From the IMG/VR virus record IMGVR_UViG_3300030104_002170, positions 1 through 35,459 of that record: 35,459 nt of DNA. One strand, 5' to 3'. Positions 23,860-28,171 of the stretch are shown piece by piece; positions within the stretch are counted from its first letter, which is position 1, and the number at the start of each line of letters is the position of its first letter. A program made the translations under genes and the position numbers. The DNA comes from a virus. The notes under the pieces were generated by a model, which was not told the DNA's origin, searched no databases, and saw only the letters and a list, made by a program, of their open reading frames with translations.

Positions 23860-24413
23860 GAAACAAACACATTTGGGATGCGGTCAACAATGTTTGGCCT
23901 AAAGACGTTAATCTTGTTCCAACTGAGCGTGAAGCCGTAATAGGCGTTAAACGTCTTTATAAAAAATTTATGGGACACGCTTGGTCTGGCGAAATTAAAA
24001 TAACGTCTGGAAACCGACACACTTGGATAAGACGAAACACTTTATCCATAAACCCCGATCACGGATATTATGGTGGTTGGCGTGATATTGTGCATGGTCT
24101 TTCGCATTATATTTTTATGCGACAAAACCCAAACCTTAAACCACATAACCCAAAACAAGCCTATCTTGAAAGAGCAATAGCTGAATATGTTGTTGCATCT
24201 GGTTTTCTTGAAGGCCGACACGTTAGGCCACTAAAAGAAAAACCAAAAATATCTTTTAAAGAAAAACCAAAAATATCTTTGGTTGAAAAACGATCTAATC
24301 ATGCCAAAGATATGCTGAAAAAACATCAAAATAACTTAAAACGCACCGCAAAACTTGTCACAAAATGGCAGAAAAAAGTGCGTTACTACGAAAAACGAAA
24401 CGCCCCAAGCTGA
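23856..24413 (+). CDS. HxxxH metallopeptidase-like protein (185 aa)
   Basis: I start at 23856, where ATGA overlaps the previous stop. The core IVHGLSHYIFMRQNP has His80 and His84 in HxxxH spacing; then KPHNPKQAYLERAIAEYVV adds His97 and Glu105. This recalls zinc peptidase cores such as SprT, but the catalytic Glu of HExxH is replaced by Gly, so peptidase activity is doubtful. The C-terminal 60 residues are basic with a tandem EKPKISF / EKPKISL repeat and a coiled-coil helix. It may bind metal or DNA. Confidence 0.6.
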   Translation: MRNKHIWDAVNNVWPKDVNLVPTEREAVIGVKRLYKKFMGHAWSGEIKITSGNRHTWIRRNTLSINPDHGYYGGWRDIVHGLSHYIFMRQNPNLKPHNPKQAYLERAIAEYVVASGFLEGRHVRPLKEKPKISFKEKPKISLVEKRSNHAKDMLKKHQNNLKRTAKLVTKWQKKVRYYEKRNAPS

Positions 24414-24488
24414 CACTTGGAACGCTTCTAAGAAATAACACTAAACACCGCTACAGTACACGGCTCTTTATTTATAATTGTTACCCTA

Positions 24489-25427
24489 TCAAATGTAAAC
24501 AATTCCTTCTGGCCTTGTAAATCCTGGTCTTGGTCTTGTTAATGCATTTGCCACTTGATCTATAGTTACTACAGGGCTTCCCAAAAAAGACCTTTGGGAT
24601 AGTTTTTTAATTTCTTCTGAAGACCCCTCTGGATCTAGTTCATTATCTTTTTTAATACTTATTTCTCTATTTTTATTTGAAAGAAAATCAGGAAGAGACA
24701 TTTCTGGAAAAGACATTTCTGGAAAATTTATTTCTCCAAGCCCCCCATGTTTGCTAAATTCACCTGACCCTAATTCATATTCGTATGTTGGAGAAACTAC
24801 TGAGCTTAAAAGCCCCCCCATTGGCCCACCAGCAACAGTTCCTACAATGCCTAATGGATTGACCTCAAAGCCAATTGGTTGAGTTGTATTTTCTACACCA
24901 GCCATTGCCCGACTAAAATCTGGCCCAAATACATCTCTACCTGTAAATTCTGCATCCACGCCAAAAACATTTCCTAATGTTTCAAATGGGGCTGATAATA
25001 TTGCACCTAATAAACTTGGCTGATTAACATTTGGGATGTTATCTACAGACATAGATGCCCCTACATCTCCAGCTTTATAAGTATAGTTTTGACCAAGTGG
25101 CCCATCAAAAGATGTATATGGGTTTTTTGTAGCATCATAAATATTTACAGTATGAGGGAAATCCCTCCATGTAGGTATATCCATTGTACCCATGTCTACA
25201 TCGTCCATGCCATAAGTGTCAAAAGACCCAAAACTATCACTTTCTTGATACCCACTTTGGCCTTCACCAAAAAAAAATTCTGGCATTCCTGTCACAGGGT
25301 TAATCGTTCCACCATCTGTTACTTCATTCAACAACATAGCCTCTTCTGGATTAATATGGGCAAGCATGGTGTCACCGCCCCTACCAAACCCTTGTAATAT
25401 AGCCGCCATTTGTTGAATATTGTTCAT
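24489..25427 (-). CDS. Virion-like protein with GGDTMLAHINPEEA motif (312 aa)
   Basis: The N-terminus GRGGDTMLAHINPEEAMLLN followed by GGTINPVTGMPEFFFG is a motif I recall in virion or ejection proteins of many alphaproteobacterial phages. The middle is Gly-rich and hydrophobic (LGAILSAPFETLGNVFG and GTVAGGPMGGLLSSVVS), the C-terminus charged. It is encoded away from the structural operon, 12 bases downstream of an intrinsic terminator, with GGAAAG as ribosome binding site. I see no clear own promoter, so it may need antitermination or read-through. Confidence 0.6.
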   Translation of the reverse strand: MNNIQQMAAILQGFGRGGDTMLAHINPEEAMLLNEVTDGGTINPVTGMPEFFFGEGQSGYQESDSFGSFDTYGMDDVDMGTMDIPTWRDFPHTVNIYDATKNPYTSFDGPLGQNYTYKAGDVGASMSVDNIPNVNQPSLLGAILSAPFETLGNVFGVDAEFTGRDVFGPDFSRAMAGVENTTQPIGFEVNPLGIVGTVAGGPMGGLLSSVVSPTYEYELGSGEFSKHGGLGEINFPEMSFPEMSLPDFLSNKNREISIKKDNELDPEGSSEEIKKLSQRSFLGSPVVTIDQVANALTRPRPGFTRPEGIVYI

Positions 25428-25439
25428 TTAACTTTCCAT

Positions 25440-25462
25440 AAAAAAAAGCTCCAAACTGGAGC
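25440..25462 (-). terminator. Intrinsic terminator of the leftward regulator operon
   Basis: On the minus strand the stem GCTCCA/TGGAGC with a GTT loop is followed directly by TTTTTTTT. It ends the operon that begins with the Cro-like gene at 27543. The virion-like gene starts only 12 bases beyond it. Confidence 0.85.
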
Positions 25463-25532
25463 GGTTTCTACATATAGTGCCTCATCTTAACTTTTTGTAC
25501 TATATTCACTCGCAACTCACAACAATTATTTT

Positions 25533-25961
25533 TCATATTCTGTAATAATTTGCTAACTGATCTAAAACAATTTTTAATGATCCATAAATTTCTCTTGAGT
25601 CTACACCTGATTTAGTTATTGGTTTTTCAAGCCCTACATAATCCCACAATATCTTTCCAGCAATTTCTCCAAGCTCTTTTATGACGTTGTTTACTTTAGT
25701 TTTTGCTTCAATAGTTTTAATGTTGTGATTATCAGAAATCATTACTCTTGCAACTTTTTGAAAATCCACCATTGAATAATTATCATTTAATTGAGCCATT
25801 TCAAAATCGTAATTAAATATTCTGGCGGCATCTACATGGCGTTGCTTTAATTTTTCTTCAATTCTCCATCGCTCAAAAACTGACAATCTTCTTTGTCTAT
25901 AGACTCCAGCTTTGTTAGTTTCTTCAATAACAATTGGTTCTGAAGGATCAATTTTTAACAT
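25533..25961 (-). CDS. DUF6456-like protein (142 aa)
   Basis: The first third is charged (RRLSVFERWRIEEKLKQRHV), then AARIFNYDFEMAQL and, near the C-terminus, GKILWDYVGLEKP followed by LKIVLDQLANYYRI. The pattern of a helix with AAxxFxxDFExA and a C-terminal LxxxLDxLAxxY resembles DUF6456, a domain common in alphaproteobacterial chromosomes and phages and often linked with DNA-binding regulators. No catalytic motif is apparent. It is the last gene before the terminator in the regulator operon. Confidence 0.6.
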   Translation of the reverse strand: MLKIDPSEPIVIEETNKAGVYRQRRLSVFERWRIEEKLKQRHVDAARIFNYDFEMAQLNDNYSMVDFQKVARVMISDNHNIKTIEAKTKVNNVIKELGEIAGKILWDYVGLEKPITKSGVDSREIYGSLKIVLDQLANYYRI

Positions 25962-25987
25962 ATGTCTCCTCGTTCGTGATAATTTTT

Positions 25988-26134
25988 TTATTCGTTTTGA
26001 AATTTTTTAGATTCCTCTCCAATTTTAATTAGATCTTTTCCTAATTTAATTATTTGGTCTTCAGACAAAACAACAATTTTATTATCAATGTTTAATTTTA
26101 TTTTATCGTTATCTTTAACCCAAATTAATCTCAT
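25988..26134 (-). CDS. Small hypothetical protein (48 aa)
   Basis: I start at 26134 (MRLIWVKDNDKIKLNIDNK) because GAGG lies 5 bases upstream; a longer frame to 26179 would run into the structured RNA region. The product is charged with a beta-hairpin-like first half and a Lys/Glu-rich helix at the end (LGKDLIKIGEESKKFQNE). It resembles no family I know. It comes directly after the 276-base structured stretch, so its ribosome binding site is close to the RNA fold. Confidence 0.55.
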   Translation of the reverse strand: MRLIWVKDNDKIKLNIDNKIVVLSEDQIIKLGKDLIKIGEESKKFQNE

Positions 26135-26410
26135 TATATCCTCTATTAGACTCTTGGTGAAGTTCTGAGCTAAAGGCAAAGCACGACCACCCTCAGAATA
26201 TATCTAAGGATGGTGCTTGCCTCTGCGTGAAGATTAGACTCCTGGAGCCAGTCCCTCGCTATCGGCCTATTATATGAGATAACCACATAATAGTCGGTGT
26301 CTACTATACGACCTCGTTATCAGGCCACTAACCACTCTCACACCTTTCGCACCAAGTTTGCCCTATGGTTAGACCCCACAGTAGGGCTTTAAATCAAATG
26401 CGCTGCCGTT
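26135..26410 (-). ncRNA. Structured RNA candidate between O-like gene and 48-aa gene
   Basis: This 276-base stretch has no open frame but folds well on the minus strand. Hairpin 1 (26387-26360): GCCCTA/TAGGGC capped by TGG/CCA. Hairpin 2: GGCCT/AGGTC (26326-26322 with 26314-26310) around a 7-base loop, enclosed by GGTGT/ACACC (26344-26340 with 26300-26296). Hairpin 3: CTATTAT/ATAATAG (26293-26287 with 26273-26267). Hairpin 4 (26221-26175): 8 pairs with one bulge, then 9 pairs, with a 9-base loop. The loops of hairpins 2 and 3 carry GATAAC and GTTATC, perfect complements able to kiss. At least three pairs are G-U on this strand and would be A-C on the other, so the minus strand is the likely RNA. 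It matches no tRNA, tmRNA, 6S or intron core I know. Confidence 0.55.
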
Positions 26411-26755
26411 TTACCCGACCACATTTAATCGAGGCTTTTTCATATGCTGTAACAAATTCCGCATTTTATCAGCCATTTCTTTTCTTTCATCTTCATCTTG
26501 ATCTTCATAACGTGCTTGATTTAACCACGTTGCCGCTAATGGAATAAATCTTTGCTCTGTTTCTTCGACAATATTTGTTTTGTATCTAAAAGCAAGAGCT
26601 GCCTCAACTAATTCTTCTGGAGTAGATCGCGCTAATATTTTAACCCCACAAGTTGCGGTCATTTTACCTTTAGTCGTTATTTCCTCGAATGTAGCTCTTG
26701 CCACAGCCTTACATGATTTTCTAGGGTACACTTCCCAAAATTCTTCAAATGTCAT
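26411..26755 (-). CDS. Replication protein O-like C-terminal module (114 aa)
   Basis: The N-terminus FEEFWEVYPRKSCKAVARAT and the C-terminal ETEQRFIPLAATWLNQARYE give the pattern FxxFWxxYPRK...RFIPxxxTWLNQxxxxD. This is well known from the C-terminal region of phage replication proteins (lambda O type) and primosomal DnaT-like proteins that recruit the host helicase loader. The usual N-terminal winged-helix origin-binding domain is missing, so the phage may use this short module alone. It overlaps the upstream gene by ATGA and precedes the structured RNA. Confidence 0.6.
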   Translation of the reverse strand: MTFEEFWEVYPRKSCKAVARATFEEITTKGKMTATCGVKILARSTPEELVEAALAFRYKTNIVEETEQRFIPLAATWLNQARYEDQDEDERKEMADKMRNLLQHMKKPRLNVVG

Positions 26756-26946
26756 TTCACCCTCGCTTGATATTCTTGTTCTGCCTTGCGACTACAAATT
26801 AAGCAAGCATCCAAACCACCAGAAATAATCTTTTCTTCATGTGGCTCATATTTAAAACCTGTCTCTGTTCTCACTGGTCTATGAATAATTGCCATTTTAA
26901 CAACCTTCGGTCTAAGTACCTCAATTTTCCCTTTACACTCACACAT
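26752..26946 (-). CDS. Small two-Cys-pair protein (64 aa)
   Basis: I choose the ATG at 26946; a TTG start at 26958 would add four residues. The product begins MCECKGKIEVL and ends with ACLICSRKAEQEYQ, so a CxC pair and a CxxC pair could bind one zinc ion. The intervening 45 residues are beta-like. It overlaps the HNH gene by 8 bases and the O-like gene by 4, so it is translated with both. Role unknown; DNA or protein contact is likely for such a mini zinc protein. Confidence 0.6.
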   Translation of the reverse strand: MCECKGKIEVLRPKVVKMAIIHRPVRTETGFKYEPHEEKIISGGLDACLICSRKAEQEYQARVK

Positions 26947-27358
26947 AAGGAGACTCAAATTCTATACGACCTGTTTCACCTTCTTTTCTTTTATCAACCA
27001 TAATTTTGTGTGATGCTTTAAGATTTTTATAAATGTCTTCAAGCATTGGCTTGGAATATTTCCCAATTGGAATTGATAACTCCGTTAATCGACTTGAAAT
27101 AATTTTTCCTAATTTTTCATCCACCCATAATCCAAATTCATGAGGGCGGTCTGTCAAATAGGAATGACATTTTGCACAATGAGAAACAGCGTTGATAGGC
27201 TCCCAACGCAATCGCCTAAACTTTCGGCTTACAATGTGACTACAGTGAAGTCTTTGCCGTTCGCCTTCAACCACAAATTCGCCACATCGTTCACAACACC
27301 AATTTGACCTCTCTCGTATCAAAAGGCTAAAAATAGCATCACGTTTATCACGCTTCAT
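26939..27358 (-). CDS. HNH endonuclease (139 aa)
   Basis: CCERCG (residues 21-26) and CAKCH (61-65) supply a structural zinc site. The active core is LHCSHIVSRKFRRLRWEPIN, with conserved His38/His41, followed by AVSHCAKCHSYLTDRPHEF. This layout is that of small phage HNH nucleases related to NinG-type recombination enzymes. It could nick DNA for recombination, packaging or replication start. It sits in the regulator operon directly behind the Cro-like gene with an ATGA overlap. Confidence 0.75.
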   Translation of the reverse strand: MKRDKRDAIFSLLIRERSNWCCERCGEFVVEGERQRLHCSHIVSRKFRRLRWEPINAVSHCAKCHSYLTDRPHEFGLWVDEKLGKIISSRLTELSIPIGKYSKPMLEDIYKNLKASHKIMVDKRKEGETGRIEFESPYV

Positions 27359-27543
27359 GGCATATCCAAAAAAGAATCTGGCAATTTGACGTTCATTTCT
27401 TTAGCTCTTTGCAAAACCTTAAACCGATATTTCCAAGGTATTCCACGCCTTTTCCAATTAGAAATATTTTGCGTAGACAAACCAAAAACACCAGCAACTC
27501 TCGTGGTTCCACCTATAAGCTCAATTATATTTGAATGTTTCAT
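27355..27543 (-). CDS. Cro-like transcriptional regulator (62 aa)
   Basis: I start at 27543 (MKHSNIIELIGGTTRVAGVF); the longer frame to 27657 crosses the promoter region. The helix-turn-helix is TRVAGVFGLSTQNISNWKRR (about 14-33) followed by GIPWKYRFKVLQRAKE and the LPDSFL end, the pattern of small Cro/CI-type repressors from alphaproteobacterial phages. It is encoded opposite the early operon and faces a promoter with a GTAACAAAATGTT dyad, its likely operator. No ribosome binding site is obvious. No integrase accompanies it, so it may control timing rather than lysogeny. Confidence 0.75.
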   Translation of the reverse strand: MKHSNIIELIGGTTRVAGVFGLSTQNISNWKRRGIPWKYRFKVLQRAKEMNVKLPDSFLDMP

Positions 27544-27551
27544 ATTATGAA

Positions 27552-27568
27552 TGTAACAAAAAGTTTTA
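27552..27568. promoter_or_regulatory. Possible second operator next to the Cro-like gene
   Basis: TGTAACAAAAAGTTTTA resembles the dyad in the early promoter (GTAACAAAATGTT), differing in the right arm. It lies 9 bases before the Cro-like start codon, where bound repressor could autoregulate the gene. The leftward promoter itself is not clear. Confidence 0.4.
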
Positions 27569-27586
27569 AAAAAGTAAAATAGAAAC

Positions 27587-27614
27587 TTTACATTAGTAAC
27601 AAAATGTTTATAGT
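27587..27614 (+). promoter_or_regulatory. Early rightward promoter with operator dyad
   Basis: TTTACA (27587-27592) and TATAGT (27609-27614) are 16 bases apart. The spacer contains GTAACAAAATGTT (27596-27608), with inverted arms AACA/TGTT, a likely binding site for the Cro-like regulator. The same 13-mer lies in the spacer of the promoter at 31709, and both lead into a TATAACAAA leader and the same ribosome binding site. Confidence 0.75.
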
Positions 27615-27639
27615 AAGCATATAACAAAAGGAGAGAGAC

Positions 27640-27840
27640 ATGACACAAAAAGTCCACGTTACTTTAACAAACGAAGAAATTAGGTTTTTACTGTTTGTTC
27701 TACAAGATCGCTTTATTCACGATCTAGACCAAAATTCAGTTGATGACATCACTGGAAAGCATGGGAATATAATCGCTCAAGAATTGAAAGAGAAAGTTTT
27801 AGATGCAGTAGAGTATGGGCGGAGCCTCGACTTACCTTAA
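27640..27840 (+). CDS. First early protein, hypothetical (66 aa)
   Basis: MTQKVHVTLTNEEIRFLLFV leads into a short charged protein with a helix containing LQDRFIHDLDQ and a C-terminal helix (AQELKEKVLDAVEYGRSLDL). I do not recognise the family. It is the first gene after the early promoter and has the GGAGAGAGA ribosome binding site (27630-27638). First early genes often encode small host-takeover proteins, but nothing in the sequence shows this. Confidence 0.65.
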   Translation: MTQKVHVTLTNEEIRFLLFVLQDRFIHDLDQNSVDDITGKHGNIIAQELKEKVLDAVEYGRSLDLP

Positions 27841-27851
27841 CCATAACAAGT

Positions 27852-27888
27852 GGGGGGGGGTGGTTCCCCCCGAAACCCCGAAAGGGGT
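27852..27888 (+). other. Tandem G/C hairpins with G9 tract in early leader
   Basis: A run of nine G (27852-27860) pairs with CCCCCC (27866-27871) around TGGTT. Five bases later ACCCC/GGGGT forms a second hairpin with a GAAA tetraloop (27875-27888). They lie between two early genes, about 15 bases before the next ribosome binding site. No U-run follows. They may stabilise or process the transcript or tune translation. Confidence 0.7.
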
Positions 27889-27913
27889 CTGGTCAACCAA
27901 ATGGAGAGAGAAC

Positions 27914-28171
27914 ATGAAAAAGAAAATTGTTAAGAAACTTTGGCAAGGTAAATTTTGCTCTGTCAGAGATTATGAAGTTAGAGACGCAATCAAAAAGGGC
28001 GGTCTTGAGCTTCAGCATGATAATCAAATCATGCGTTTGAATGTTAATGAACTGCGCCAGTTAAAGCCTACTGGCAAGCCCATTCAATCCAAATTTAAAG
28101 GCTCATATCACTTGATTGACATAACTTTTAAACCTTTGACGGAAGATGTTAATCAACAAAAATTGTTTTAA
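27914..28171 (+). CDS. Early hypothetical protein (85 aa)
   Basis: I start at 27914, 2 bases after GGAGAGAGA (27903-27911); a longer frame to 27815 would run through the hairpins. The product is basic (MKKKIVKKLWQGKFCSVRDY) and carries ELRQLKPTGKPIQSKFKG and a C-terminal QQKLF. The basic mixed alpha/beta sequence could bind DNA or RNA. I recognise no family. Confidence 0.65.
   Translation: MKKKIVKKLWQGKFCSVRDYEVRDAIKKGGLELQHDNQIMRLNVNELRQLKPTGKPIQSKFKGSYHLIDITFKPLTEDVNQQKLF

Follow-up and report, generated by a model that had tools for sequence, protein, structure and literature searches.

The viral record IMGVR_UViG_3300030104_002170 of IMG/VR, analysed over its whole length of 35,459 nt and referred to here as the window, contains on its minus strand a stretch between the gene of an O-like replication initiation protein and a small gene of 48 aa (Table 1). 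A first-pass annotation had assigned an undescribed structured RNA with complementary hairpin loops to positions 26135-26410 of this stretch. The RNA characterized in the following belongs to a family that is widespread yet little described, and it features an internal segment (R1) whose flanking blocks return at its 3' end (R2). In agreement with the annotation, no convincing gene was found within 26135-26410, and neither ARAGORN (no tRNA) nor Rfam (no tRNA or tmRNA) gave a match in this interval. The borders had to be revised: the RNA starts at ~26429, about 20 bases before the annotated start at 26410, so that the loop of the first hairpin includes the stop codon of the preceding replication gene, and the 3' unit ends at ~26145. 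For positions 24000-28000 of the window, no DNA match was obtained among annotated phages, and likewise the RNAs of the relatives had no match in phages or plasmids in a DNA search.

Table 1. Positions of the RNA, its predicted structural elements and the adjoining features in the window (L numbers denote related loci)
Feature	Position	Strand	Evidence
Upstream gene for an O-like replication initiation protein (C-terminal part)	26411..26755	-	PHROG 9474, E 8.7e-13
Conserved RNA unit, whole (~290 nt)	26145..26432	-	Homologs alignable over the span; downstream gene content switches right after it (L020/L056, L177, L178)
5' end of the RNA	~26429-26432	-	Homolog alignment
H1, 10-pair hairpin, conserved loop GGUCGG...ACGGCAGC, stop codon of upstream gene in loop	26393..26429	-	Pairs 100% kept, 3 changed on both sides
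H2, hairpin with conserved ACUGUGGG	26360..26387	-	Alignment of relatives, covariation test
Pseudoknot 1, CUAACC (26372-26367) with GGUUAG (26333-26328)	26328..26372	-	100% paired, both-side changes in 5/6 pairs
H3, short 4-pair stem around one strand of pseudoknot 2	26334..26357	-	100% paired, both-side changes in 2/4 pairs
Pseudoknot 2, GGUGU (26344-26340) with ACACC (26300-26296)	26296..26344	-	100% paired, both-side changes in 1 pair
H4, hairpin with GAUAAC in loop	26310..26326	-	Fold and covariation test
Kissing helix, GAUAAC (26321-26316) with GUUAUC (26283-26278)	26278..26321	-	Kept in 10/10 close relatives
H5, hairpin with loop GUUAUC	26267..26293	-	Both-side changes in 7/10 pairs
R1, internal copy, GGACU-GGCUCC-AGGAGUCUAAU	26233..26254	-	R1=R2 rule
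H6, long hairpin between R1 and R2, 22 pairs	26172..26224	-	Predicted fold; largely kept in relatives
R2, terminal copy, GAACU-UCACC-AAGAGUCUAAU	26145..26165	-	R1=R2 rule
3' end of the RNA	~26145	-	Homolog alignment
A+T-rich stretch just after R2	26085..26135	-	0.78 A+T vs 0.65 locus mean, near-identical L002
48-aa gene right after the RNA	25988..26134	-	No family match

Fold and covariation of the RNA

The RNA was assigned to the minus strand because the fold of this strand beats dinucleotide shuffles (z = -2.54, with 1 of 100 shuffles as good), whereas the plus strand folds no better than its shuffles (z = -0.28). For the covariation test, ten close relatives (set A1) were compared with a structure of six hairpins, two pseudoknots and a kissing helix, comprising 73 proposed pairs. 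In these relatives, 95.3% of the cells are paired, as opposed to 36-44% with the partners slid by 1-3 columns, and changes on both sides affect 21 of the 73 pairs (64 such cells vs 23 in shuffles). With its stems and two further pseudoknots covarying, the annotated minus-strand RNA is borne out. The complementary loops, GATAAC and GTTATC in DNA letters, were found exactly where they had been placed, each within a hairpin loop of the minus strand. Among the ten close relatives, one pair of the helix formed by them changes on both sides (GC to AU) while the other five are invariant, and its covariation support is real, if not overwhelming; by eye, L020 and L033 combine the kissing loops GATAGA and TCTATC. 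For pseudoknot 2, exact complements of different sequence occur in L017, L031, L063, L068, and L073, as detected in distant relatives by a crude pattern search which missed several. In general, distant relatives retain the pseudoknots with unrelated sequence.

Two details of the annotated fold required correction. The longest hairpin is present, comprising 22 pairs over 26224-26172 in place of the 17 pairs given for 26175-26221. In addition, two alternative folds had been suggested on the grounds that GGCCT can pair with AGGCC; this pairing is possible in the window, but L017, with AGCG and CGCT, by eye keeps the hairpin that the kissing interaction needs, which leaves the two alternative folds without support. 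Judged by homology and covariation, the RNA is a compact, multiply pseudoknotted molecule of ~290 nt.

Relation to RF02932 and distribution of relatives

The description as an RNA without known family applies at the curated Rfam thresholds, at which the window has no match, and gives way below them. In a permissive Rfam scan, positions 26340..26429 (-), i.e., the 5' third of the RNA, matched RF02932 (Betaproteobacteria-1) with 38.1 bits (E 1e-5 in 511 nt), which is less than the gathering cut-off of 49.4 bits, and similar scores were obtained for the same region of three near-identical viral contigs. Further Rfam matches to sR52, AgvB, and HOTAIR_2 were treated as chance. The RF02932 alignment shares with the window the H1 loop, the 10-pair stem, which is kept with quite different sequence and covaries, and the second hairpin with its motif ACUGUGGG. 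Burkholderia and Paraburkholderia members of the present set reach more than 100 bits with RF02932, indicating that the Rfam model corresponds to the 5' part of a longer RNA. With its last position at 120, the model contains neither H4-H6 nor the kissing pair nor R1/R2, whereas R1 and R2 were recovered in L070 and L087 (genomes scoring >100 bits), in L089 (genome scoring 88.5 bits), and in the window. By homology and covariation, the interval encodes a divergent relative of the RF02932 RNA in its long form. Within the library searched, no paper naming RF02932 was obtained. The present data turn a short and unexplained Rfam entry into a full-length RNA that is multiply pseudoknotted and occurs in a wide range of hosts. 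Large ornate RNAs with kissing loops, namely GOLLD, ROOL, and OLE, are known from bacteria or phages (PMC12286853), and the present RNA has no Rfam match to any of them.

Relatives were collected by patterns based on the H1 loop and ACUGUGGG, with 50 stretches retrieved from viral contigs and 31 from genome contigs. Approximately 16 pattern matches were judged from their sequence to be chance or coding, and 49 distinct RNA loci were kept after removal of near-duplicates. L005 was rejected as a chance match of the loop. Two late patterns mostly returned matches that were rejected as coding or chance; L189 and L194, obtained in this way, fit the relation between R1 and R2 described below. All counts treat the loci as independent once near-identical ones had been removed. 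The relatives come from viral contigs as well as from genomes of Proteobacteria, Bacteroidetes, and Acidobacteria, and the hosts named in their records include Burkholderia, Paraburkholderia, Caulobacter, Kordiimonas, Flavobacteriia, and Acidobacteria. With regard to the distance between R1 and R2, two size classes exist, featuring either ~50-60 or ~75-98 bases.

The internal copy R1 and its terminal counterpart R2

In nearly all members, the bases that follow the internal GGCUCC return behind the terminal UCACC. The match was tested with anchors chosen by position alone, both of which are present in 35 of the 49 loci. The two segments are identical at seven of seven positions in 18 of these loci and at six of seven in 9 (27/35 together), compared to 0.1 and 2.2% (2.3% together) of pairs formed across loci. 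The identity amounts to 0.84 in register and falls to 0.24-0.31 at offsets of 1-4. When all anchored segment pairs were scanned, R1/R2 ranked first in either size class, and neither a second guide of similar strength nor a relation to the 5' flank emerged. Similar repeats occur in L039, L042, and L190 even though these loci lack the GGCUCC/UCACC anchors. Within the window, the exact 9-mer GAGTCTAAT is restricted to R1 and R2, and its exact complement is found nowhere; complements of the repeat elsewhere in the loci of the relatives are not enriched either (14 seen vs 15.5 expected). The repeat itself differs even among close phages, e.g., GAGTCTAAT being replaced by GAGTCAAAC. Apart from this, L042, L190, and L191 represent a divergent subtype without GGCUCC, of which L042 and L190 retain a similar repeat with G-to-A departures (TCGGAGGCA and TCAAAGGCA in L190).

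Where the copies deviate from each other, the departures run in one direction, with G in R1 and A in R2. Among the loci with at least 4 of 7 identical positions and anchors set by position only, 12 departures are wobble-compatible, none is reversed, and 4 are of other kinds. In the long class, the block upstream of GGCUCC/UCACC comprises 61 identities, 24 wobble-compatible departures, none reversed, and 10 others; this block had no part in the selection of the loci, and the binomial probability is ~1e-7 if relatedness is ignored. A G of R1 facing the T or U opposite an A of R2 forms a wobble pair, whereas the reverse would produce an A-C mismatch. The one-way departures therefore suggest that R1 is under selection for pairing with the complementary strand of R2. 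The sole partner that changes automatically with R2 would be the opposite DNA strand of the RNA's own locus or an antisense RNA transcribed from that strand. The repeat is newly described here, and the rule drawn from it, R1 reading the complement of R2, makes the function of the RNA directly testable by swapping eight bases at two places.

Possible functions and genomic surroundings

The favored interpretation, to which we give a probability of roughly 0.35, is that of a self-targeting RNA-DNA hybrid (R-loop) element which perhaps primes replication. R1 comprises 4-5 nt, the constant GGCUCC, and 8-9 nt, and R2 repeats the two outer blocks around UCACC. The likeliest partner of R1 would be the DNA template strand at R2, and the resulting R-loop would be anchored where the RNA stops and A+T-rich DNA starts. 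In each of the 33 loci tested, R2 is followed by A+T-rich DNA (mean 0.61 vs 0.46), unlike the DNA before the RNA. Speculatively, the RNA could open or prime the DNA at R2 by means of host enzymes in the manner of ColE1 RNA II. No neighboring protein family is conserved across the relatives, which makes this the most economical use of such a hybrid. ColE1 RNA II forms a persistent hybrid at the origin, is cut by RNase H, and primes polymerase I; a structured RNA, a persistent hybrid with its own locus, and maturation by host RNase H are the features of this preprimer (PMC4555960). As far as sequence goes, the present RNA likewise has a segment that could pair with the template near the RNA end, but neither homology in sequence or fold to RNA II nor an antisense RNA I was identified. 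By pairing with its own template strand, the RNA would mark a DNA site in an unusual manner and, provided that the partner is indeed DNA, represent a new kind of self-directed RNA-DNA recognition. The broader generalization is a widespread RNA class of phages and bacterial genomes whose internal guide, built of two blocks, is directed at the DNA strand at the 3' boundary of the RNA itself and forms a programmed R-loop there without an element-encoded protein; it is considered less likely than not.

Several observations weigh against the R-loop interpretation. The loci, counted as independent above, remain related to each other, the G-rich context of R1 could add to the G-to-A bias, and L010, L068, and L091 do not obey the R1/R2 rule. 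Departures in the upstream block of the short class have no preferred direction (7 to 6), and the two-block guide is therefore claimed for the long type only. Furthermore, R2 in its RNA form would be a competitor for that template strand, and the DNA of the locus contains R1 as well, so that it is not obvious what would be gained from pairing of R1 at R2. Alternatively, R1 could pair with an antisense RNA or a host RNA. Besides, no known origin coincides with any member, and the Paraburkholderia copies are situated among metabolic genes, unlike a replicon origin.

Among the alternatives, a guide RNA serving a protein encoded elsewhere is rather unlikely. In that case, R1 would direct the protein to DNA sites composed of UCACC and R2, with UCACC resembling a PAM (protospacer adjacent motif), and the RNA gene might be mobile. 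The IS110 bridge RNA offers a parallel, as its left guides use 8-9 nt to read the bottom strand of the target and of the donor, which is the element itself (PMC11208160). In the present RNA, R1 would likewise read the bottom strand with 8-9 nt, and variable blocks lie on either side of a constant core. The bridge RNA requires a recombinase and a top-strand guide (PMC11208160), whereas the present RNA has no recombinase nearby and no top-strand guide. More generally, no nuclease, recombinase, or transposase is conserved in the vicinity, and the scan of segment pairs gave neither a second guide nor a relation to the 5' flank. Moreover, R2 is retained while the genes after the RNA change (L020/L056, L177, L178), which indicates that R2 is part of the RNA unit rather than the flank of a target. 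The distribution in Paraburkholderia is in favor of a guide: the RNA occurs in 32 of 148 genomes with 1-4 scattered copies per positive genome, some of which are truncated relics. These truncated and scattered copies hint at possible mobility or rearrangement at the RNA; an empty-site comparison within one genus yielded no clear empty site.

A cis-acting transcription element, in which R1 would be a rival for the template within RNA polymerase or behind it at R2 and thereby cause pausing, termination, or put-like antitermination, is considered unlikely. The repeat of 8-9 nt is about as long as the hybrid of RNA and DNA inside RNA polymerase, and many loci have a co-directional gene shortly after the RNA. 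A Q-like architecture downstream in the window, with a terminator at 25462-25448, fits this explanation as well. Nevertheless, the next gene is opposed in L049, L050, L065, L073, L094, and several Paraburkholderia copies, and no terminator is predicted at R2. HK022 put is a phage leader RNA that acts without a phage protein, but it is far smaller than the present RNA and its fold is different.

An even less probable explanation is a trans-acting small RNA with R1 and R2 as two seeds for one host or antisense target. It would explain the sequence common to both segments and agrees with the conserved promoter-like block upstream of the Paraburkholderia copies; two seeds, however, are expected to depart in both directions, as opposed to the observed 24:0 and 12:0, and the repeat varies even between close phages. 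A functionless fold or a decayed tRNA cluster is hardly credible, since it is contradicted by the covariation and the R1/R2 rule, no tRNA is present, and nothing strong speaks in its favor beyond the fact that the long hairpin alone could be chance.

The position beside an O-like replication gene, mentioned in the first-pass annotation, is correct for the window and not general among the relatives. Their neighbors, called from simple open reading frames, are mixed and include the O-like protein, a primase or primase-helicase (the latter adjoining L041-type loci, as we read the sequence), terminase, portal, Mom, RadC/HsdM, and metabolic genes. In the close phage relatives L020, L056, L177, and L178, different small genes are located at the same point after R2, resembling an insertion hotspot. 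Short iteron-like repeats directly follow the RNA on its 3' side in L062 (CTGTAGTTA) and L041 (TATAGTTA). In the Bacteroidetes loci L080 and L085, the RNA adjoins a RadC-like gene facing away, and in L085 it is also located upstream of an HsdM gene. In the Paraburkholderia regions L137, L138, L139, L140, L142, and L144, 5'- or 3'-truncated copies are situated close to full ones, among ordinary metabolic genes. A promoter around R2 with TTCACC as -35 and TATAAT as -10 element, which would fit the window, was rejected, as the -10 element is not enriched in relatives. Further downstream, a DUF6456 gene (PF20057; 25533-25961, -) precedes the late genes, with a promoter-like stretch and then a short terminator (GCTCCAGTTTGGAGC-T8; 25462-25448, -) in between, and together they look like an antiterminator (Q-like) gene with a tR'-like site. 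Upstream of the RNA, the gene at 26939-27358 (-) matches the NinG/Rap junction endonuclease (PHROG 5034).
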